NCBI GenBank assembly: GCA_046727435.1
Contig: JBKPCR010000315.1
Coordinates: 1 to 11,739, forward strand
DNA length: 11,739 nucleotides
Origin: CAVPRW01 sp046727435 [NCBI: bacterium]
GTDB lineage: Bacteria > Tectomicrobia > Entotheonellia > J063
Direction: 5' to 3'
Under the pieces are notes generated by a model, which was not told where the DNA came from, did not search any database, and saw only the letters and a program-made list of their open reading frames with translations. Shown here in pieces: positions 237-9,724 of this stretch (its first letter is position 1; every line of letters begins with the position of its first letter). The translations under genes and the position numbers were made by a program.

Positions 237-2498
237 TTATGCATCAAAGGTCATCTCATAGTCGCCGAATCGGACGCGGACGGGTTTTCCCAGAGTTTCC
301 CCATCCGTCAAGATGACACCCCGCTTGTCTGTCACCTCGACCCCGTTCACCGAGACATGGCTGGGGCTTCGGAAGCTCCGCAAGTATAGCGCCCCCGTCC
401 GTTCCCACCACGGCCCAGCGCAGATCTCGGCGTCGATGTCAACGCCAGTCTCGCGCCGATCTAACTGGTAATCGCAATGTGGCTCGGTCCCAATGGTTGC
501 CCCCTTTCTCGGAAAGACGCGCCCCCAGGCTTCCTCCTTGGGGTTGCTATTCAGCACGAACAACTGTGGAGTCCCCGCTCCAGTCGACAACAGCCAACCG
601 CGTAGAGGGGTGCGGACATAGTGGCCGATGAACGCCATCCCCGCTGCGCAGGCCATTCCCAACGCCATCCCCACCAACGAGATGTACTTGATGATGCGAC
701 CCATAGTCCAGGGTGTTGGCGCTACTGTCAATTTTGTTGGGTAAACAATCTGTACCGGATTCACGCGCAAGCTCTTGGTGCTGATGAGTCGGTCGTCCCA
801 GACCTCCGCCATGGCGTTCCCCTCCGCCCGGAACGTCACGGTATAAGCTCCAGCGGAGGGCAGCGTGAAGAGTTGACTGCGATAGTGCGCGGTCTCTCCT
901 TGGCTTACTCGTTCGAGTGGGAACACTTGCCATGATTGACCATTGCGCCATACCTCGGCTCGCACCATCGGCTCACGGCGAAAGTCGACCGCGGTGCCGC
1001 CTGCCAGCTCGGCCAACAACTCGACGCGATCCCCAGCAAAGACCGCTTCTTGAGCACGACCATTGCTGGATACGAGGACGGGCGAAGCAGTGGAGAGTCC
1101 ATGGCGCACTACAGCGAAGTGAAAATAGGGCGCACCCACCTTGAAGGACGTACCAATCTTGCGGTTGAGACTCGGATGTTGTTCACTCAAGAGTTCGACT
1201 TCGAGGCGATAGTCACCTTCTGTAACGGTCTCCTCGAACGTACCTGTGAACACGAATTGTCCGTCTTCGCCCCGCGGGGTGAGCCGTCTGGACACCGGCA
1301 GCGGCACATGCGGCAGCCAAACGCTTGCCACGATCTCCGCCCCTTTTAAGAACTCCGCCAGTTGTGTATCTTCCTGCATGTTCCGCAAGCCAAACGAGTG
1401 GACCTTAACCCCCAGATGCAAGACTTCATGGAGCGCATACTCCTGCTTGGGAGGGTGTTCCCAGGCGAGGGTGATCGCCGAGTGCACTAAGGCCTTGGTA
1501 TCCTGGACAGGATTGCCGTTTTGATCGACCACATGATAGATGCCCTCGTATCCCGCGAGGTCACCCAACGGCCGGGAGAAAATGGCCAGCGACCAGTGCT
1601 GATAGGGATAGACACGCACCCATGGGCTTTCGGCAGACGCGGCCAGCCCCAAACCGATGCGTTGTCCCCGTGGTGTCACCAATATCATGTCGCGTGGGCC
1701 GATGACGATGGCTTCCGCATCGAACTGATTCAGGTAAAATCTGCCGTCCGCCTGCCGTGGCAGGGTGTACAGGCTTGGAGGGCGCACCTGCAGGAAGATG
1801 TCGAGGAAGGCATCGAGGTAGTCTCGTTGGCGGAGAATACGATAGAATTTGCCGTTCGTGCTTTCGGCGATCTCTTTCAGCAAGAGTTCGCCAGAAGTCA
1901 TTTGAATGGGCGCATTGGGTTGCAGCTCAGCACCGCCAGCCAACGCTTTGCGGGAGGACTCTGTGAGAGCGATCGTGAAAACGAGGACATTCTCCTGACG
2001 CAACTTGGCATAGAGCGCTCGCAACTCGCGCAGCGCTAGCTCGTCGTCACGGGTCCAGCGTTGTGCGGCGCGTCCAGAACGGTCCAACTCGCCATCGCTC
2101 ATAACGACGAGGTAACGCGTCCCGCCGCGCCCCTCCAGAAGTTCTACTCCCTTGGCCATGCCGAGGCCAATCTCCGTACGCTGCGCCCGACTATCGATCG
2201 GTGAGAGGCTGTCCTTGAGACTTTTCAAGGTCTCCCGTTGGATGGCCCTCACAGGTTGCATCACGCGGGCCTTGGCTCCGAAAAACACCACGCCCAGATG
2301 ATTGCCTTCCACGCTGTTGAGGAGATCGATGAACGTTTGTTCGCCATCACTCCGGATGTTGTGGGGATCATTGTCTTGCATCGAGCGCGAGATGTCGAGC
2401 ACAAGGACGCCAGTTGATTCCCACGCACTCTCGGCAACGCACCACAGGCTTAGGAGCGCAACGAGGCATCCCCAGGTCCCAATGACCCTTCGTCTCAT
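237..2498 (-). CDS. Membrane-anchored vWA-domain protein with C-terminal FHA-like domain
   Basis: A 753-residue protein. I chose the ATG at 2496-2498 because GAGGGAGGG lies 5 bases upstream and it begins a clean signal/anchor (MRRRVIGTWGCLVALLSLWC); an in-frame ATG 48 bases earlier lacks both. Residues about 28-240 form a vWA domain with a complete metal-binding MIDAS: DISRS (D35, S37, S39), T108 in RTEIG and D135 in VMSDGE. A long beta-rich extracytoplasmic region with no recognised signature follows. Residues about 605-628 form a membrane helix. The last ~115 residues resemble a divergent FHA domain (IGTEPHCDYQL, then SPSHVSVNGVEV and LTDGETL), which would be cytoplasmic if both helices span the membrane. 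vWA domains bind protein ligands through the metal, and FHA domains bind phosphothreonine. The protein may therefore link the envelope to the cytoplasmic tubulin-like protein encoded just downstream. That role is inferred. Confidence 0.82.
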   Translation of the reverse strand: MRRRVIGTWGCLVALLSLWCVAESAWESTGVLVLDISRSMQDNDPHNIRSDGEQTFIDLLNSVEGNHLGVVFFGAKARVMQPVRAIQRETLKSLKDSLSPIDSRAQRTEIGLGMAKGVELLEGRGGTRYLVVMSDGELDRSGRAAQRWTRDDELALRELRALYAKLRQENVLVFTIALTESSRKALAGGAELQPNAPIQMTSGELLLKEIAESTNGKFYRILRQRDYLDAFLDIFLQVRPPSLYTLPRQADGRFYLNQFDAEAIVIGPRDMILVTPRGQRIGLGLAASAESPWVRVYPYQHWSLAIFSRPLGDLAGYEGIYHVVDQNGNPVQDTKALVHSAITLAWEHPPKQEYALHEVLHLGVKVHSFGLRNMQEDTQLAEFLKGAEIVASVWLPHVPLPVSRRLTPRGEDGQFVFTGTFEETVTEGDYRLEVELLSEQHPSLNRKIGTSFKVGAPYFHFAVVRHGLSTASPVLVSSNGRAQEAVFAGDRVELLAELAGGTAVDFRREPMVRAEVWRNGQSWQVFPLERVSQGETAHYRSQLFTLPSAGAYTVTFRAEGNAMAEVWDDRLISTKSLRVNPVQIVYPTKLTVAPTPWTMGRIIKYISLVGMALGMACAAGMAFIGHYVRTPLRGWLLSTGAGTPQLFVLNSNPKEEAWGRVFPRKGATIGTEPHCDYQLDRRETGVDIDAEICAGPWWERTGALYLRSFRSPSHVSVNGVEVTDKRGVILTDGETLGKPVRVRFGDYEMTFDA

Positions 2499-2590
2499 GC
2501 CAGCCCTCCCTCGTGTATGCACCCGATGAACATGGATGTCGCCCATATACCCCTCCCGAGGCCCATCTCATTCGGGGGCTTCCGATTGCT

Positions 2591-3083: not shown

Positions 3084-3125
3084 CTCAGGCGTCCCGTGGG
3101 AGCTGCCTCCCACGGGACGCCTGAG
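3084..3125. terminator. Perfect 19-bp-stem hairpin, possible terminator without U-tract
   Basis: Arms 3084-3102 (CTCAGGCGTCCCGTGGGAG) and 3107-3125 are perfectly complementary around a 4-base loop (CTGC). The hairpin starts 23 bases after the stop of the small gene ending at 3149, the right place for a 3' end. Neither strand has a T-run after it, so it is not a classical intrinsic terminator. It could stabilise the mRNA 3' end, act as a U-less terminator, or be a palindromic repeat unit. Confidence 0.5.
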
Positions 3126-3148: not shown

Positions 3149-3424
3149 TCACAGTTTGTCTGGAAATGTTCTCGTCGGCATGCGATCTGTCACGCGTCGC
3201 AAGACATCTCGCGAGAATAGCGCCAACGGCAGGATCTGGCGCTGTTTGGCCAGAACCTCCTCAATCGTATTGCCATCACTAACAATGTTGTCGCCCGAAT
3301 CGAGAACAGTTTCAGCGGTATGGATGAAACCGCCATTTTTCTTAGGATACCGATAGACGTGTGTCATATACGTCTTCTCAGCGCATTGAAGCATACGGCT
3401 ACCCACTAAATGCATACTGGACAT
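3149..3424 (-). CDS. Small hypothetical protein (91 aa), probable sigma-54-controlled gene
   Basis: The ATG at 3422-3424 is preceded by AGGAGG 9 bases upstream. An in-frame ATG at 3445 would place that Shine-Dalgarno inside the gene, so 3424 is the better start. The product starts MSSMHLVGSRMLQ. It contains a hydrophilic, structured-looking stretch (MTHVYRYPKKNGGFIHTAET, residues 20-39), then an acidic turn (DSGDNIVSDGNTIEE) and a helix ending LPLALFSRDVLRR (residues 65-77). It has no signal peptide or membrane helix and one cysteine (C14). I do not recognise the family. A -24/-12 promoter lies 73-88 bases upstream of the start, a large palindrome lies further upstream, and a 19-bp hairpin follows the stop, so it looks like a monocistronic regulated gene. 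It lies 284 bases downstream of the histidine kinase gene and is a plausible output of the nearby two-component system. Confidence 0.62.
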   Translation of the reverse strand: MSSMHLVGSRMLQCAEKTYMTHVYRYPKKNGGFIHTAETVLDSGDNIVSDGNTIEEVLAKQRQILPLALFSRDVLRRVTDRMPTRTFPDKL

Positions 3425-3496
3425 CGCCAAGCACCTCCTGTCCATGCTGCTTCACATCTGTGACGTGGTGAGCATCTACATAGTATGTCCTCAGAA

Positions 3497-3512
3497 AGCA
3501 AAAATGATACCA
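3497..3512 (-). promoter_or_regulatory. Sigma-54 (-24/-12) promoter for the 91-aa gene
   Basis: The minus strand reads TGGTATCATTTTTGCT. Against the sigma-54 consensus TGGCAC-R-N4-TTGCW it keeps the invariant GG (-24) and GC (-12) with exactly 10 bases between, and matches TTGCT fully. The deviations are T for C, T for C and C for the purine in the -24 half. Transcription would start near 3486, giving a leader of about 60 bases with AGGAGG near its end. The DNA just upstream (3521-3570) has only 7 G/C in 50 bases, which suits DNA bending between activator and promoter. Confidence 0.58.
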
Positions 3513-3591
3513 GAGACTTAGATAAATTATTTTGATGATAATATATATATTATGATTTCTTAAGATCATTTCTGACAATGCAGATGATTCT

Positions 3592-3630
3592 GCCCCACAT
3601 CTGTGCGACTCAGTCGCACAGATGTGGGGC
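3592..3630. promoter_or_regulatory. Perfect 39-bp palindrome, candidate upstream activator site
   Basis: Arms of 19 bases, GCCCCACATCTGTGCGACT (3592-3610) and its exact complement (3612-3630), flank a single central base at 3611. The centre lies about 125 bp upstream of the predicted sigma-54 transcription start, the usual distance for an NtrC-type enhancer. The core TGCGAC-TCA-GTCGCA is a natural dimer-binding shape. Part of one arm, CACATCTGTG, recurs at 3453-3462 in the leader of the small gene. No T-run flanks it on either strand, which argues against a simple terminator for the kinase gene that ends 79 bases earlier. Confidence 0.5.
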
Positions 3631-3708
3631 CCATGAAAGGGAACTGTCCAGCGGGCGAAGTGCACACCGTATTGGGCATTGCTCGTCATGACGTGCGGGA
3701 GCGGTCTT

Positions 3709-5616
3709 TCAGCTTTCATTGTGGAGGGGTAGGAGAATGGTGAAGGTGGACCCGATGCCAAATTGGCTCTCCACATGCAGATGCCCCTGATGTTCTTCGA
3801 TAATCTTGTGCGTCAGGGCGAGACCGAGGCCCGTCCCTTTCTCCTTGGTGGTGAAGAATGGCGTGAACAGTGAATCGAGTTGTTCGGGGGTCATCCCTGT
3901 TCCCGTGTCTGCCAGCGTGATGAACACAAACGCCAGAGCGGTATCGGCTGCTGTACCGAGATCGACATGGGCCGTCGTCTCGCCCAGTGTGGACTGCCAG
4001 GGCACTCCATTGCCAGTGCGGATGGTCAACCTTCCCCCTGCCGTCATGGCTTGAATGGCATTAATGGCCAAATTGCCCACGGCACGCGACAGATATTCCG
4101 GATCAGCACGGACGTATGCGAGTCCTGGCGCCAGTTCCTGGACAATGGTGATGCCGCGTTCCGCCGCTTGTTGCTCATAGAGTGCCACACAACGGGCGAT
4201 GATCTCATGGACATGGAGCGGCCGCGGCGAAAGACGCGGCGGTCGACTCAGTTCGAGTAACTCCTCCATAATGGCGTTCACACGATCGACCTCTTTGGGA
4301 ACGATATCCTGGAATCGAGTGATAAACGCCGGATCCTTCGCCCGACGTGGGACCATGTCGACGAACGTTTTCAACGCCACAAGCGGATTCTTGATCTCAT
4401 GGGCTACCATGGCGGCCATGCGCCCAACCGCTGCCAGGCGATCGGCCCGTCGCAATCGTTGCTCCAACTCGCGCACCAGAGAGAGATCGCGGAAAATGCC
4501 GAGCAGCCCGGTGGTTTGTCCGACCTCGTCCTCAAGCAAGCTGGTGTTGATCTCGATGGGGACCTCATGACCATCGAGCCGGATGAACGACACTCCCCGG
4601 TCCCACCACACGCGCTTGCCCTGGATACCGTCCAGGAGAAGCCGCATAAATGACGCATTGCTGGCGAAAAGTTCTCGACAGAGCCGCCCCTCAACCTCGC
4701 CTACTGCGTAGCCGGTAATGCGTTCCGCCATATCATTCCACTTGACGATGCGTCCCTCCATGTTCAAGGTCACCAAGCCATTGGTCATCGAGGCAAGGAT
4801 ACGGGCGTTATACCGTTCCAGATTCGACACCTCCCTCAACTGGGCATCAAGTTCGAGGTTGGCCTCTTGCAGGGCCGCCTGCTGGGCTTGTAGGTCATTC
4901 GTCATGTGGTTAAACGTCGTCGCCAACTCGCCGATCTCATCCGCCGAGCGCACATCGATGCGATGCGCCAGGTCACCTCCAGCCACGGCCAATGCTCCAG
5001 CCCGCAATTGCTCGAGCGGCGAGGTGATCCGGCGCGCCAAGATCAATGCGGCGAGACACCCCACCAAGGCGGCGACGATGCCGAAGATAAAAATGGTGAG
5101 TCGGGTCCGCTGAATTTCCCCATACATTCCCTGCAGTGTGATAGCGACACGCACTGTTCCCCATTTATCGCTCTCGTCAGTCGGGAATACTGGGATCGCG
5201 ACCTCAAGGATATTCCCCTGGCGTGGGTCGACCCCGGACTGGATGAGAGGATCAAGGGTTTCCAAGGCCTTCCGGCTGACCAGGTCCGTGAGATGCTGCC
5301 CCTGCAGATCACTGCGCTGGCTGTGTGCCGCCACACGCCCTTCGCGGTCGAGGATGATGACATATACTACGTCCTCTTCTTGTGCGAGGCGTCCGACTTG
5401 CTGCTCCAGTAGTACATAGTTATAGGTCACCAGGGCATTGGTACTGACCGCTGCCAGATTTCTGGCAATTGTCATGCCGCGCTTGCGCACTTGAGCTTCG
5501 ATGGCCTTGCGTTCACGGTACTCGACGACTATCATCATTACCGCCGTCAGGAGCACCACTAAGCATACAACCGACAAGGCTAGCTTGGTGCGAAGGCGCA
5601 TGTTGCGGAAATGCAT
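3709..5616 (-). CDS. Membrane PAS sensor histidine kinase (NtrB/AtoS/ZraS type)
   Basis: A 635-residue kinase that autophosphorylates and passes phosphate to a response regulator, very likely the NtrC-type one at 8351-9724. Domains: membrane helix ~11-31; extracytoplasmic sensor ~32-171, probably Cache-like (VVYVIILDREGRVAAHS); membrane helix ~174-194; HAMP ~195-247; coiled coil; PAS ~268-380 (GLVTLNMEGRIVKWNDMAER); HisKA with phospho-acceptor H406 in VAHEIKNP; and an ATPase domain with N-box N515/N519, DTGTGM at 570 and GTGLGLAL at 594. All catalytic motifs look intact. The start is uncertain: the ATG at 5616 has GAGG 11 bases upstream, while a GTG at 5643 would add nine residues and overlap the lipoprotein gene by 14 bases. 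Either way the two genes are translationally close. The sensor could be read directly or through the co-encoded binding lipoprotein. Confidence 0.93.
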   Translation of the reverse strand: MHFRNMRLRTKLALSVVCLVVLLTAVMMIVVEYRERKAIEAQVRKRGMTIARNLAAVSTNALVTYNYVLLEQQVGRLAQEEDVVYVIILDREGRVAAHSQRSDLQGQHLTDLVSRKALETLDPLIQSGVDPRQGNILEVAIPVFPTDESDKWGTVRVAITLQGMYGEIQRTRLTIFIFGIVAALVGCLAALILARRITSPLEQLRAGALAVAGGDLAHRIDVRSADEIGELATTFNHMTNDLQAQQAALQEANLELDAQLREVSNLERYNARILASMTNGLVTLNMEGRIVKWNDMAERITGYAVGEVEGRLCRELFASNASFMRLLLDGIQGKRVWWDRGVSFIRLDGHEVPIEINTSLLEDEVGQTTGLLGIFRDLSLVRELEQRLRRADRLAAVGRMAAMVAHEIKNPLVALKTFVDMVPRRAKDPAFITRFQDIVPKEVDRVNAIMEELLELSRPPRLSPRPLHVHEIIARCVALYEQQAAERGITIVQELAPGLAYVRADPEYLSRAVGNLAINAIQAMTAGGRLTIRTGNGVPWQSTLGETTAHVDLGTAADTALAFVFITLADTGTGMTPEQLDSLFTPFFTTKEKGTGLGLALTHKIIEEHQGHLHVESQFGIGSTFTILLPLHNES

Positions 5617-5629
5617 GCCCAGCCCAACC

Positions 5630-7447
5630 TCACTTCCTGCCACTCGTCTTCCCGGTCTGCTTTAACCAGACCTTGCGAAGGGAGACATATGCTTCGCCAA
5701 GGGCGCTGACCACAACCCCTTCGACGTACGGTTGGAACACGCTTTCATACGTGAAATGCAGCAGCATCACGGCCGGTGCACCGTTCAGGATAAGCTGCTC
5801 AGCCTCCCGGTAGAGCTTGACGCGGCGCAGATCGTCGGTTTCTCCGCGTGCGTCGTCTAAGAGCTTATCCACCGAGGGGTTATGATATCGGTAATAGTTC
5901 CTTTGGCCTGCAGAGTGAAAAAGAGGATAGAGGAAGTTATCCGGGTCCGGGTAATCGGCGGTCCATGAATAGCGGAATAGCTGGACATCCCCCTGCTCGA
6001 AGGCCCGTCCCAAGGTTGGCCAATCATCGAATTCCTGCAAGTCGACCTGGACGCCGAGAACCGCCAGATAGTGTTGGACGATTTGAATCTCCATACGTAC
6101 CGCTTCTGATTTCGCTGAATTGGACAGCGTCACGGGTGTCAGATTTTTTCCACCCGGATGGCCCCCCTCCGCCAATAGCGTTTTCGCTCTGGCTGGATCA
6201 TAATCGTAACCCTGCACCTCAGGGTTATATCCTGGCATGCCCGGCGGCAGAATACCTCGGGCCACGACATAACGCCCCCCTTGGGCCTCCTGGTTAAGGC
6301 GGATCTTATCGATGGCATAATTGAATGCCTGCCGCACCTCTCGCTTCTGAAACGGGGGACGATTAAGGTTGAAGCCGAGGAGTCGGAGGTTGAGGCTCGG
6401 CTTTCGGATGACTTTATACGTCGCCGCTTCAAGAAATTCATTCCGGCGGTCCGGAGTCAGGGGGCTCTCCTCCAGTTCTCCTTGCTCAAAGGCTCTTAGC
6501 ATATCGCTTTCTGTGTGCCCTGGAAAGATGACAAAGCGGACGCGATCCAGGGCTGGCTGCCCCCCCAAATAGTGCTTGTTGGTCTCGAGAAGGATCTCCT
6601 GTCCTCGCACCCATCGCACGAAGCGAAAGGGACCAGTGCCCACAGGCGCCATGTCAAAGTCCGAGCCTAACCGTTCAACTTCCTCCCGGGGCACTACAGA
6701 TGTATGGGGCATGCCAAGGATGCTGATAAAGGGGACGAAGGGCTCAGAAAGGGAAACCTCTATGGTGTAGCGATCGACGGCCTTGATCCCCTCAAGCACT
6801 TTCGTTGTGCCGGCCCGAAACTCGGCCGCCCCCTTCACTTTATCCAAAAGCTGACTACTGCGCGAACCCACGGTGGGATTGAGCAATCGGGAAAGCGAGT
6901 AGACAACATCCTCGGCGCTCATCTCTCGCCCGTTATGGAACTGCACGCCTTTGCGGAGATGGAAGGTCCAGACGACGCCGTCACGCGAAGCCGACCAGGA
7001 TTGAGCCAGGGCAGGCACCACGTTGAGGTGAGCATCAAACGCCACCAGGCCATCAAAAATCTGGTTGGCAACGGCTACCCCATACGAATCAACAATCTTG
7101 GCGGGATCGAGGCTGGAGGGATCGTTTCCCAAAGGCCGTCGGTAGGTACCCCCGATGGCTGGCGCTTGCGTCACTTGCGATAAATCCTCACGCGGCTGCT
7201 TCGTTTCATTCTGCTCGCTACAGGCGGAGATGGCGAGAGTCACTGCCACCAAAAGAGATAACCCGATGAACCGACGCGAAGGTCGCCAGGCCTGTGAGAG
7301 CTTTGCGATGGCGCGGCATGCAGTTCTCCTGACCCTGTCGAGCGCCCGCGTCTGGGCAAGCAGATAGTGAACGACTGCGTCTCTCCAAGGCACTACCTTT
7401 TTCACCGAACCGGCCTCGCTGAGCTTCTGATAGGCCCTCGCTTTCAT
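5630..7447 (-). CDS. Oligopeptide-type ABC solute-binding lipoprotein (SBP_bac_5), orphan
   Basis: A 605-residue periplasmic binding protein of the DppA/OppA family, which binds peptides or other small solutes. The SBP_bac_5 hallmark is clear (AQSWSASRDGVVWTFHLRKG, then VQFHNGREMSAEDVVYSLSR), and the fold runs to the C-terminus at normal length. A lipoprotein signal (FIGLSLLVAVTLAISAC) gives lipid attachment at C76. Unusually, about 55 charged residues precede that signal. The ATG at 7447 has a G-rich Shine-Dalgarno (GGGGGGCGG); an ATG at 7498 has none. No permease or ATPase gene lies near. The next gene is a sensor kinase whose start overlaps or abuts this stop, so it may present ligand to the kinase rather than feed a transporter. 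Binding proteins of this family also serve as peptide-pheromone receptors, notable given the small exported peptide encoded upstream. The ligand cannot be told from sequence. Confidence 0.9.
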   Translation of the reverse strand: MKARAYQKLSEAGSVKKVVPWRDAVVHYLLAQTRALDRVRRTACRAIAKLSQAWRPSRRFIGLSLLVAVTLAISACSEQNETKQPREDLSQVTQAPAIGGTYRRPLGNDPSSLDPAKIVDSYGVAVANQIFDGLVAFDAHLNVVPALAQSWSASRDGVVWTFHLRKGVQFHNGREMSAEDVVYSLSRLLNPTVGSRSSQLLDKVKGAAEFRAGTTKVLEGIKAVDRYTIEVSLSEPFVPFISILGMPHTSVVPREEVERLGSDFDMAPVGTGPFRFVRWVRGQEILLETNKHYLGGQPALDRVRFVIFPGHTESDMLRAFEQGELEESPLTPDRRNEFLEAATYKVIRKPSLNLRLLGFNLNRPPFQKREVRQAFNYAIDKIRLNQEAQGGRYVVARGILPPGMPGYNPEVQGYDYDPARAKTLLAEGGHPGGKNLTPVTLSNSAKSEAVRMEIQIVQHYLAVLGVQVDLQEFDDWPTLGRAFEQGDVQLFRYSWTADYPDPDNFLYPLFHSAGQRNYYRYHNPSVDKLLDDARGETDDLRRVKLYREAEQLILNGAPAVMLLHFTYESVFQPYVEGVVVSALGEAYVSLRKVWLKQTGKTSGRK

Positions 7448-7450
7448 ACC

Positions 7451-7467
7451 GCCCCCCGCGGCGGGGC
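7451..7467 (-). promoter_or_regulatory. GC-rich hairpin over the lipoprotein gene's ribosome site
   Basis: The leader just before the ATG at 7447 reads, on the minus strand, GCCCCGCCGCGGGGGGC. Its ends can pair as GCCCC against GGGGC. The G-run is also the only Shine-Dalgarno, so the fold would hide the ribosome site. This could damp translation or make it depend on upstream ribosomes. The structure is short and the call is based on complementarity only. Confidence 0.3.
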
Positions 7468-7574
7468 AGATAACACAAATTCTCCCTGAGATTGGCATAA
7501 AGAGAGGAGAAAATCAACAAACTATTCACCTCATCCTTAAACAGTCTGGTTGCGAAGGCCACTGGCTGAGAACA

Positions 7575-7610
7575 GCACAAGGATGAGAGATTCTTCCCTC
7601 ACCCTTGTGC
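7575..7610. repeat. 13-base imperfect inverted repeat upstream of the lipoprotein gene
   Basis: GCACAAGGATGAG (7575-7587) and CTCACCCTTGTGC (7598-7610) pair at 12 of 13 positions around a 10-base spacer. It lies in the 294-base gap between the small peptide gene and the lipoprotein gene. No T-run follows on the minus strand. It may be an operator, an RNA processing hairpin or a weak attenuator. I found no -24/-12 promoter in this gap, so the lipoprotein and kinase genes may depend on read-through from the peptide promoter. Confidence 0.4.
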
Positions 7611-7704
7611 AAAGGGGGCTGAGTCTTGACATTACATCCCTACAATCTTCTTGATCATCAACCACTGCATCTGGAGCACGCTCATCATCACTGCGACGAA
7701 TGCC

Positions 7705-7733
7705 GCCCCTAACGACGTAGTCGACTCAGGGGC
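7705..7733 (-). terminator. Hairpin just after the small peptide gene
   Basis: GCCCCT (7705-7710) pairs with AGGGGC (7728-7733), and an inner CGAC/GTCG pair (7713-7716 and 7720-7723) extends the stem across an internal loop. It begins 8 bases after the stop codon at 7742. No U-tract follows, so any termination would be partial. That would fit a highly expressed first gene with lower read-through into the lipoprotein and kinase genes. Confidence 0.35.
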
Positions 7734-7741
7734 TTGTGTTG

Positions 7742-7864
7742 TTACGAGCCGTCGCCTTCGGCAGAAGCGCTGCTGGTCCACTGGCCGCTAGTGAAGGTCG
7801 TCGCCGAGATGCCGGAGACAATCAGGGCCGCGGAAATCATGAGGGCGATGATCAGTTTACGCAT
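7742..7864 (-). CDS. Small exported peptide (40 aa)
   Basis: The ATG at 7862-7864 has GGAGG 8 bases upstream and a TAA stop at 7742-7744. Residues 1-21 form a textbook export signal: a basic start (MRK), a hydrophobic core (LIIALMISAALIV), then SGISA. The remaining 19 residues are polar and small (TTFTSGQWTSSASAEGDGS). Signal peptidase could cut after SGISA-21, or after SASA-35, which would release only EGDGS. There is no cysteine, so it is neither a lipoprotein nor disulfide-bonded. A strong -24/-12 promoter match lies 104-119 bases upstream. The next gene is a peptide-binding-type lipoprotein, followed by a histidine kinase. A signalling-peptide precursor is the attractive inference; a small envelope stress peptide is the main alternative. 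I know no family for it. Confidence 0.62.
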   Translation of the reverse strand: MRKLIIALMISAALIVSGISATTFTSGQWTSSASAEGDGS

Positions 7865-7967
7865 GTGTCTTGCCTCCATAAGCGGTTCGAGGTATGTTGT
7901 CTGCTCTGCCATGTAAAGGGGGCATTGCCCCTAGTATTGCCGTCGCTGAACACTGCTTATTAGGTAA

Positions 7968-7983
7968 CGCAAGGGCGATGCCA
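7968..7983 (-). promoter_or_regulatory. Sigma-54 (-24/-12) promoter for the small exported peptide
   Basis: The minus strand reads TGGCATCGCCCTTGCG. It matches the sigma-54 consensus at TGGCA and TTGC, with GG and GC separated by exactly 10 bases. The last base of the -24 box is T rather than C, and the final base is G rather than A/T. Transcription would start near 7957, giving a leader of about 93 bases before the ATG at 7864. An NtrC-family activator gene with a GAFTGA motif ends about 370 bp upstream. This is the better of the two -24/-12 matches in the window. Confidence 0.65.
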
Positions 7984-8030
7984 ACATGTGCTTGGTATAG
8001 AGATGGATCATGTAAGTCGGCGTCGGTCGC

Positions 8031-8057
8031 ATGTTTGCGCGCACGTCGCGCCCACAT
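8031..8057. promoter_or_regulatory. Imperfect dyad, candidate activator site for the peptide promoter
   Basis: ATGTTTGCGCG (8031-8041) and CGCGCCCACAT (8047-8057) are inverted copies matching at 9 of 11 positions around a 5-base spacer. The centre lies about 87 bp upstream of the expected sigma-54 start. Its core TTGCG-N5-GTCGCGC lines up with TGTGCG-N5-GTCGCAC in the palindrome at 3592-3630. Further GTCGCA half-sites occur at 8026-8031 and 8240-8245; the latter lies in TGAGTCGCA, which is also in that palindrome. The sites may be bound by the response regulator encoded just upstream. Confidence 0.42.
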
Positions 8058-8150
8058 ATGCAGGCATACGACGAAACGGGCCTGCACGGAAATACAGGCA
8101 ATCACAGGTGAGACGATAAGTGGCAAGGCTTACTAGACGACAGCTCAACG

Positions 8151-8176
8151 ACTATGCATAATGATTTGTGCATAGT
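8151..8176. promoter_or_regulatory. ACTATGCA palindrome between regulator and peptide genes
   Basis: ACTATGCATAA (8151-8161) and TTGTGCATAGT (8166-8176) pair over 11 positions, one of them G-U, around a 4-base loop. It lies 175 bases after the response regulator's stop and about 200 bp upstream of the sigma-54 promoter. No T-run follows on the minus strand. It could be an operator for another regulator or a 3'-end hairpin of the regulator mRNA. The rest of 7984-8350 holds no gene that I can support. Confidence 0.4.
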
Positions 8177-8350
8177 GCCCTATTTAACAGGCAGTGGCCA
8201 TTGAATGGAGGGGGTTGGCGGATATGTTTGTACCATTGAGTCGCATAAAATCATGTTGATCAATGTTGATTACTGGAGGATAAGGCGGCGTCTGCGTCGT
8301 GGGTTCATGGAGTGCTGTGGCGCTAACGTAGGGGCTGGAGGAAAGCCGTG

Positions 8351-9724
8351 CTAGCGCAGGTCAAGTTGTTCGATCTTCCCCAGTAGGGTATTCCGATGAA
8401 TACCTAGCATACGGGCAGCCACTGTTTGATTCCAATGGGTTTTCTCGAGAACTCGACGAATGTATTCACGCTCGAATTGCTGCACCGCTTTGCGTAAATC
8501 ATACCCTTCCTCTTCCAGCTGCTCGAGCAGCGGAGTGTGCGATGACTGGAGGTCGAGGGGGAGGTCTCGGAGTTGGATCATTTCATGCTTACTGATCACT
8601 ACCAGGCGTTCGACGATATTCTCTAATTCCCGCACGTTTCCGGGCCAGTCGTAGGCTTGCAGCGCGTCCATAGCCGCCAGAGAGAAGCCCCGCACCTGGC
8701 GGTTGAATTGCCGGTTATACTTGGCCAGGAAGTATTGGACCAAGAGCGCGATATCACTCTTGCGGGACCGGAGAGGTGGCACAAACACTGGGATGACATT
8801 CAAGCGATAGTACAGATCATCACGGAAGCCCTTGGTCTTGACCAGTTCGCGAAGATCAGCATTGGTCGCCGCTACGATGCGTACGTCAACCTTAATGGTA
8901 CGCTCGCCCCCGACCCGCTCGATCTCACGCTCCTGGAGCGCGCGCAGGAGCTTGGTCTGCATATCAAGTCGCATACTCCCGATTTCGTCGAGGAGCAGGG
9001 TGCCACTATGCGCCAGCTCGAATTTCCCGATCCGCCGCTGGATAGCCCCCGTAAAGGCGCCGCGCTCGTGCCCAAAGAGCTCACTCTCGATCAGCTGTTC
9101 GGGGATCGCCGTACAGTTGACGGCCACGAAAGGCCTCTGGCTCCGACGGCTCTGCCGATGGATGGCTCGGGCGATGAGCTCCTTGCCGGTCCCACTCTCC
9201 CCGGTGATCAGCACCGTCGCATCGCTATCGGCCACCTGCCCAACCAGATCGAAGATCTCGACCATCTTCTCATCGCGCCCGACGATATCCACAAAGGGGT
9301 GATAGTCTTCCACTTCGGACCTGAGATAGAGCACCTCTTTCATGAGCGCCTGTCTCTCCAATGTGCGCGAGACCACTCCCTGGAGCGTTTCCACATCGAA
9401 CGGCTTGACGAGATACTCACTGGCCCCTGCCTGCATGGCCCGCACAGCTGTCTTGACATCACCCACCGCCGTCACCACGATGACCCCGAGATACTCATCC
9501 ATCTCCTTAATGCGCTGGAGAACTTCCAAACCCTCCATATCCGGCAAACGGAGGTCCAGGATGACGAGACGAATATCTTCATGAGCCAGGACTTTGAGGG
9601 CAGCCGTACCATCCGCAACAGTGCGGACCTCACAGGTATCCTCCAGCACGACCTTATAGGATTCCAGTACCCCAGGCTCATCGTCGACTGCTAGCACAAG
9701 CGGATTGCTTGCCTCGAGCTGCAT
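8351..9724 (-). CDS. Sigma-54-dependent NtrC-family response regulator
   Basis: A 457-residue transcription activator. The receiver domain has acidic D14/D15, phospho-acceptor D57 (LVILDLRLPD), T85 and K107. The AAA+ domain has Walker A GESGTGKE (175-182), GAFTGA (222-227), the loop that contacts sigma-54, and Walker B LLLDEIG (243-249). A Fis-type helix-turn-helix ends the protein (NQTVAARMLGIHRNTL, about 432-447). All parts needed to open sigma-54 promoters are present. I chose the ATG at 9724 (MQLEASNP), with GAGGG 4 bases upstream; in-frame ATGs at 9745 and 9784 would add unstructured residues. It follows tlyA by 76 bases and may be co-transcribed with it. The only histidine kinase in the window (3709-5616) is of the class that pairs with this regulator, and two -24/-12 promoters lie nearby. 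Pairing is inferred from neighbourhood. Confidence 0.95.
   Translation of the reverse strand: MQLEASNPLVLAVDDEPGVLESYKVVLEDTCEVRTVADGTAALKVLAHEDIRLVILDLRLPDMEGLEVLQRIKEMDEYLGVIVVTAVGDVKTAVRAMQAGASEYLVKPFDVETLQGVVSRTLERQALMKEVLYLRSEVEDYHPFVDIVGRDEKMVEIFDLVGQVADSDATVLITGESGTGKELIARAIHRQSRRSQRPFVAVNCTAIPEQLIESELFGHERGAFTGAIQRRIGKFELAHSGTLLLDEIGSMRLDMQTKLLRALQEREIERVGGERTIKVDVRIVAATNADLRELVKTKGFRDDLYYRLNVIPVFVPPLRSRKSDIALLVQYFLAKYNRQFNRQVRGFSLAAMDALQAYDWPGNVRELENIVERLVVISKHEMIQLRDLPLDLQSSHTPLLEQLEEEGYDLRKAVQQFEREYIRRVLEKTHWNQTVAARMLGIHRNTLLGKIEQLDLR

Follow-up and report, generated by a model that had tools for sequence, protein, structure and literature searches.

A proposed NtrB/NtrC-type regulatory system with a candidate peptide-binding co-sensor lipoprotein in a Tectomicrobia contig

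Introduction

The 11,739-nt contig JBKPCR010000315.1 (hereafter the window, meaning the whole stretch of DNA analysed) carries on its minus strand, in this order, the genes of a response regulator, a 40-aa open reading frame (ORF), a peptide-type binding lipoprotein, a histidine kinase and a 91-aa ORF. The locus raises the question of what a peptide-binding lipoprotein does beside a kinase and a sigma-54-dependent regulator: whether it serves transport, informs the kinase or receives the product of the 40-aa gene as a signal. Our analysis favours, at a probability of roughly 0.45, an NtrB/NtrC-type (AtoS/AtoC-like) system with an orphan peptide-binding lipoprotein joined to the kinase and with two sigma-54 output units. 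The parts of this reading that can be seen in the sequence are the domain content, the overlap or near-contact of the lipoprotein and kinase genes, aspartate D515 of the lipoprotein and the -24/-12-like sites. A sequence-only reading of the same DNA had described five genes on one strand and interpreted them as a complete peptide-sensing circuit. All five were recovered on the minus strand. Of that interpretation, the sequence supports a kinase and a regulator of pairing types, a binding protein of the peptide type and, before the two small genes, plausible sigma-54 promoters; it does not support the 40-aa product as the ligand or docking of the lipoprotein on the kinase.

The kinase and its regulator

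The regulator has the Pfam domains Response_reg, Sigma54_activat and HTH_8, with GAFTGA at residues 222-227. The receiver, GAFTGA-bearing AAA+ domain and Fis-type helix-turn-helix expected of an NtrB/NtrC-type system are thus all present, and its earlier description as an NtrC-type regulator with GAFTGA is confirmed by these domains and the motif. The kinase, previously recognised as a PAS histidine kinase, was found to contain sCache_3_2 and HAMP domains in addition to PAS, HisKA and HATPase_c (Pfam), and has hydrophobic stretches at residues 15-33 and 179-197. The best NCBIfam match of the regulator was AtoC (487 bits; cut-off 714) and that of the kinase AtoS (340 bits; cut-off 646); both scores are under the cut-offs and neither protein is a member of these named equivalogs. 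A PEP-CTERM regulator label was rejected at 432 bits, where 502.6 were needed (NCBIfam). A kinase start at GTG 5643 gives a 14-nt overlap with the lipoprotein gene, and a start at ATG 5616 lies 13 nt past the lipoprotein stop.

Relatives of the kinase were sought in three other phyla, yielding matches in 3 of 198 genomes from the phylum of G002, 10 of 249 from that of G003 (called Pseudomonadota; E 1e-40) and 8 of 201 from that of G001 (called Chloroflexota). A stricter search of the G003 phylum, at E 1e-60, gave none in 299 genomes. In each genome only 4 to 6 candidates, of what could be hundreds, were scored, and closer relatives were possibly missed. All 22 matching loci were examined, some with flanks that end at contig ends. 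A separate regulator lies directly 3' of the kinase in six (L049, L050, L051, L111, L112 and L114), and these regulators match that of the window (P0005) over roughly at least 410 residues at 33-47% identity (BLASTP). By these six of the 22 loci the kinase and regulator of the window are plausible partners, although only the kinase core is common to them. The kinase core appears to be of a type able to adjoin such regulators, and pairing of the two is likely. Among plasmids, the kinase had only relatives of <60% identity.

The lipoprotein

The lipoprotein was assigned to SBP_bac_5 (Pfam, E 1.7e-95), with family profile and fold in agreement, and carries a lipobox, ISAC, with Cys93. Its signal sequence (7498-7220, minus strand) has an unusually long N-terminal region from either start, 7498 or 7447. 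RRFIG, from residue 75, we take to be a twin-arginine-like motif, and export by the twin-arginine translocation (Tat) route is conceivable. The closest solved sequence was a Mesorhizobium peptide-binding protein (8upi), followed by heme-/glutathione-binding and dipeptide-binding proteins; PDB 6ofq (heme-binding protein A / AI-2 binding protein A) was also an SBP_bac_5 match. The predicted model (mean predicted local distance difference test, pLDDT, 75.6) matched folds within the same family, namely DppA, OppA and 8upi. Against plasmids and phages, only distant family members were found.

In the excerpt of PMC12136057, a DppA aspartate binds the peptide amino group and R383 (precursor numbering) the dipeptide carboxyl group. 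D515 of the window protein aligns with this aspartate, and N460 occupies the R383 position, so that the carboxyl-clamping arginine is absent. Of 56 relatives, chosen by similarity to the window protein as all 26 matches from the G003 phylum (25 with the aspartate) and the 30 best from the G001 phylum (all 30), 55 retain the aspartate. We read the lipoprotein as a binder of ligands whose amino end is free, probably peptides, and not as a DppA-like dipeptide specialist.

The main rival, unlikely in our view though not far-fetched, is that the two are loose partners or adjoin by chance: the kinase would sense a small ligand through its own Cache domain, and the lipoprotein would be an MppA-like orphan feeding a peptide transporter encoded elsewhere, the system regulating peptide scavenging rather than signalling. 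MppA of Escherichia coli, both a sequence and a fold match of the lipoprotein, is likewise an isolated peptide binder without a permease of its own; it lies outside its own transport operon and feeds Opp or Dpp, and the excerpts of PMC6022919 and PMC12136057 mention no kinase partner for it. Di-/oligopeptide transporters of the ATP-binding cassette (ABC) type are encoded by Nitrospira marina, as the excerpt of PMC8115632 states, which is relevant only for a host in the Nitrospirota. The 56 lipoprotein loci, viewed with flanks that extend to about 1.5 kb at most, also speak for this rival: a kinase or regulator like that of the window occurred in none, and in 22 a crude scan found a same-strand ORF rich in membrane segments. 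Against it stand the overlap or near-contact of the lipoprotein and kinase genes and the absence of a permease from the window.

This absence carries limited weight. Twenty lipoprotein relatives were followed over longer stretches, 17 of them chosen from loci without a nearby membrane-rich ORF, which biases the sample towards solitary genes. A kinase or regulator lay within 1.5 kb in none and further off in four (L083, L093, L094 and L099), and a permease-like ORF was wholly missing by crude scan in seven. Four relatives from the G001 phylum (L082, L084, L091 and L092) appear solitary in stretches of 8-13.5 kb, the crude scan having found no permease-like, kinase or regulator ORF. The earlier observation that no ABC permease or ATPase is nearby stands to the extent that no such gene lies in the 11.7-kb window, which is short; it is weak evidence, because solitary lipoprotein relatives occur and MppA borrows a permease.

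Promoters and transcription units

The two -24/-12 promoters proposed before the 40-aa and 91-aa genes were found as sequence matches with one and two mismatches, respectively, and both sites (7983-7969 and 3512-3498) retain the GG and GC elements. By a rough sigma-54 scoring matrix they rank second and fourth in the window, where chance would give 1.3 and 1.5 sites of such scores against 2 and 4 seen. By our own arithmetic from these values, the two gaps upstream of the small genes should together hold about 0.05 such sites on the correct strand, against the two seen. Each site is weak alone, because the consensus with up to two mismatches occurs 20 times in the window against 13.6 expected. 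Sigma-54 promoters before the two small genes are plausible, with modest support.

A palindrome, ACTATGCACAAATCATTATGCATAGT, lies about 205 bp upstream of the predicted transcription start of the 40-aa gene. An AT-rich palindrome, ATCATAATATATATATTATCAT (3535-3556, minus strand), is situated just upstream of the -24 element of the 91-aa gene and overlaps the sigma-70-like matches described below. The 91-aa gene is flanked by two perfect 19-bp inverted repeats (3084-3125 and 3592-3630), with 4 and 1 nt between their arms. The three hairpins of the region (Table 1), none of which was flagged by a terminator scan, may split it into three units. Read-through from the promoter of the 40-aa gene is uncertain because of the 16-bp hairpin between this gene and that of the lipoprotein.

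The small genes

The 40-aa ORF looks real. It has GGAGG ahead of its ATG and a hydrophobic stretch over residues 1-19, and its codon score was reached by 3 of 2000 base shuffles. When the 852-bp gap was copied 2000 times by a first-order Markov model, a comparable ORF, by criteria chosen after this one had been seen, turned up on the same strand in 6 copies and on either strand in 21. The 91-aa ORF has AGGAGGT ahead of its ATG, and 2 of 2000 shuffles attained its codon score. The earlier designation of both as coding is borne out by these ribosome-site-like motifs and codon scores. Candidate labels for the 40-aa product, Wzz (Pfam, E 0.094) and phrog_20687 (function unknown, E 0.019), were too weak to accept, as was DUF5678 for the 91-aa protein (Pfam, E 0.2). 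The 91-aa protein had no convincing relative in Pfam, NCBIfam, PHROGs, viral contigs or plasmids and no match in 151 genomes of one other phylum, that of G001; a structure predicted for the protein by itself was of no use (pLDDT 43.8).

A pheromone loop appears quite improbable. In it the cell would export and trim the 40-aa product, and the lipoprotein, having bound it, would act through kinase and regulator to raise more peptide and receptor. Such a loop would account for a real-looking ORF below a -24/-12-like site and directly upstream of the gene of a peptide-type binding protein, and the family offers parallels: the fold matches include an SBP_bac_5 OppA with a PhrE-derived pentapeptide (PDB 8are), and the sequence matches include PrgZ, a binder of peptide pheromones. 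However, the predicted mature part, with cleavage judged by eye, is about 19 residues, which is long for ligands of this type, and among the genes of the window no protease and no exporter dedicated to the peptide could be recognised. The ORF has no convincing relative in Pfam, NCBIfam, PHROGs or plasmids, and in a two-membrane cell its product would stay periplasmic unless the outer membrane were crossed. A strong hairpin also separates the peptide and lipoprotein genes. This hairpin and the lack of a common upstream motif in a crude search leave the earlier claim of one loop driving both signal and receptor unsupported, and a sigma-70-like match before the 91-aa gene counts against the loop as well.

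Improbable as well is an envelope-turnover sensor, in which the 40-aa product keeps its hydrophobic stretch as a small membrane protein under sigma-54 control, acting on the membrane or on the kinase, and the lipoprotein senses cell-wall peptides. The single hydrophobic stretch of the ORF fits such a protein, although its end looks cleavable by eye. Fold comparison of the lipoprotein returned the murein-tripeptide binders MppA and DppE, but in a ranking with many other family members, so that these matches do not single out murein peptides.

We consider very doubtful a self-contained peptide circuit of a two-membrane cell, in which a sigma-54-driven exported peptide is trimmed in the periplasm and bound by an OppA-type lipoprotein that has ceased to serve a transporter, a Cache kinase responds, and production of both the peptide and a 91-aa effector is increased by the regulator. 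If true, and if the peptide stays periplasmic, such a circuit would report secretion or envelope state, not cell density.

Gene neighbourhood

The features of the locus are collected in Table 1. Upstream of the regulator gene lie the genes of an S4-FtsJ methyltransferase and a polyprenyl synthetase, and that of a VWA-domain protein comes after the 91-aa gene (all Pfam). The VWA-domain protein (237-2546, minus strand) has two hydrophobic stretches, and its C-terminal part is FHA-like by eye; its NCBIfam matches are weak and all below cut-off. Viral-contig scans with the neighbouring methyltransferase and with P0001, P0002 and P0003 confirmed no relative. The DNA of the region had no match among plasmids, and no Rfam family reached its threshold.

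Table 1. Features of the locus, in the order of the minus strand
Feature	Position	Strand	Evidence
NtrC-type sigma-54-dependent response regulator, 457 aa (alternative start 9784)	8351..9724	-	Pfam, NCBIfam, GAFTGA
Imperfect palindrome ACTATGCACAAATCATTATGCATAGT, candidate activator site	8151..8176	-	Palindrome scan; function putative
Second palindrome, 7-bp arms and 14-bp spacer, candidate activator site	8059..8086	-	Palindrome scan; weak
-24/-12-like site TGGCATCGCCCTTGC upstream of the 40-aa gene	7969..7983	-	1 mismatch to consensus
40-aa ORF with signal-sequence-like N-terminus	7742..7864	-	ORF, hydrophobicity, codon score
16-bp RNA hairpin separating the 40-aa gene from the lipoprotein gene, without T-tract	7575..7610	-	-28.8 kcal/mol, z -3.4
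SBP_bac_5 peptide-type binding lipoprotein, lipobox Cys93	5630..7498 (start 7498 or 7447)	-	Pfam, sequence and fold matches
Histidine kinase, sCache_3_2-HAMP-PAS-HisKA-HATPase_c	3709..5643 (start GTG 5643 or ATG 5616)	-	Pfam, NCBIfam
18-bp hairpin 3' of the kinase gene, without T-tract	3592..3630	-	-39.4 kcal/mol, z -7.5
-24/-12-like site TGGTATCATTTTTGC upstream of the 91-aa gene	3498..3512	-	2 mismatches to consensus
91-aa protein without convincing relative in the searches made	3149..3424	-	ORF, codon score
19-bp hairpin 3' of the 91-aa gene, without T-tract	3084..3125	-	-48.4 kcal/mol, z -7.4

Discussion

Under the favoured reading, the lipoprotein, anchored in an envelope membrane, would close on a peptide whose amino end is free and, once loaded, would alter the kinase by way of the Cache domain that the latter exposes to the periplasm. 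The kinase would then phosphorylate the NtrC-type regulator, which would activate at least two sigma-54 units, one for the exported 40-aa peptide and one for the 91-aa protein. The circuit would have the 40-aa product as an output or accessory, while its signal need not be this product and may be environmental or cell-wall peptides.

The system resembles AtoS-AtoC and NtrB-NtrC in its kinase and regulator architecture, its GAFTGA activator, the HEIKNPL box and the best NCBIfam matches of both proteins. It differs from them in its sub-cut-off scores and in having the 40-aa ORF and the lipoprotein gene between the kinase and regulator genes. The lipoprotein is of the same family as the binding proteins of OppA/PrgZ-type pheromone systems in Gram-positive bacteria. 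Those systems take the peptide up and detect it in the cytoplasm, unlike the kinase route proposed here.

The binding proteins LuxP, TorT and XylFII are of families other than SBP_bac_5. Activation of a kinase with an extracytoplasmic sensor by a periplasmic binding protein is, according to the excerpt of PMC6321045, established for LuxP-LuxQ, TorT-TorS and XylFII-LytS; the same excerpt describes the sCache receptor TlpB of Helicobacter pylori, which is addressed by AibA/AibB, and dipeptide chemotaxis of E. coli through a binding protein. We take such a binding-protein-to-kinase mechanism as the most likely here. The LuxP-LuxQ group differs from the present locus, where an SBP_bac_5 lipoprotein is found with a single-Cache kinase and its docking is putative; AibA/AibB-TlpB and E. 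coli dipeptide chemotaxis involve chemoreceptors, not kinases with a sigma-54 regulator. No described system with this combination was found in the literature excerpts available.

Several observations weigh against a peptide-binding co-sensor. The kinase carries a Cache domain of its own and may bind ligand itself, and its interaction with the lipoprotein is putative, deduced from gene linkage only. A lipoprotein like that of the window occurred at none of the 22 kinase loci in the fetched flanks, and no relative of the whole five-gene set was found in the searched genomes of other phyla. At 16 of the 22 loci the flanks, some of them cut short by contig ends, contained no full-length regulator separate from the kinase: ten had a receiver only inside the kinase ORF, two a neighbouring receiver-only ORF and four none. 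The six regulator-paired loci match the kinase from residue 185 or later, and the Cache sensor is therefore not common to them. In five others (L102, L103, L105, L106 and L107) the match extends over the Cache half; these are hybrid kinases that contain a receiver themselves, and their flanks show no separate regulator. D515 is missing in all seven aligned members of a set of eight more distant lipoprotein relatives (24-31% identity, from other groups, in one scan of genome contigs), the eighth being a fragment that was not aligned.

Transcription adds further points on this side. Sigma-70-like matches lie before the 91-aa gene on the minus strand, at 3578-3549 (10/12) and 3563-3535 (9/12), although the four such sites of the scanned region are close in number to the 3.3 expected. 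None was found directly before the lipoprotein gene, which leaves transcription of the lipoprotein-kinase pair unexplained. In a crude search, the regions upstream of the two sigma-54-like sites had no common 14-mer at up to two mismatches; this appears to lend no support to one regulator acting at both promoters, yet would be compatible with it.

Conclusion

If the lipoprotein does act as a co-sensor, an OppA-type protein would here be a receptor for a kinase and not part of a transporter, which would give peptide sensing in two-membrane bacteria a route in addition to import. Orphan peptide-binding proteins would then become testable as sensors, and the locus would offer a direct test case for small exported peptides under sigma-54 control.

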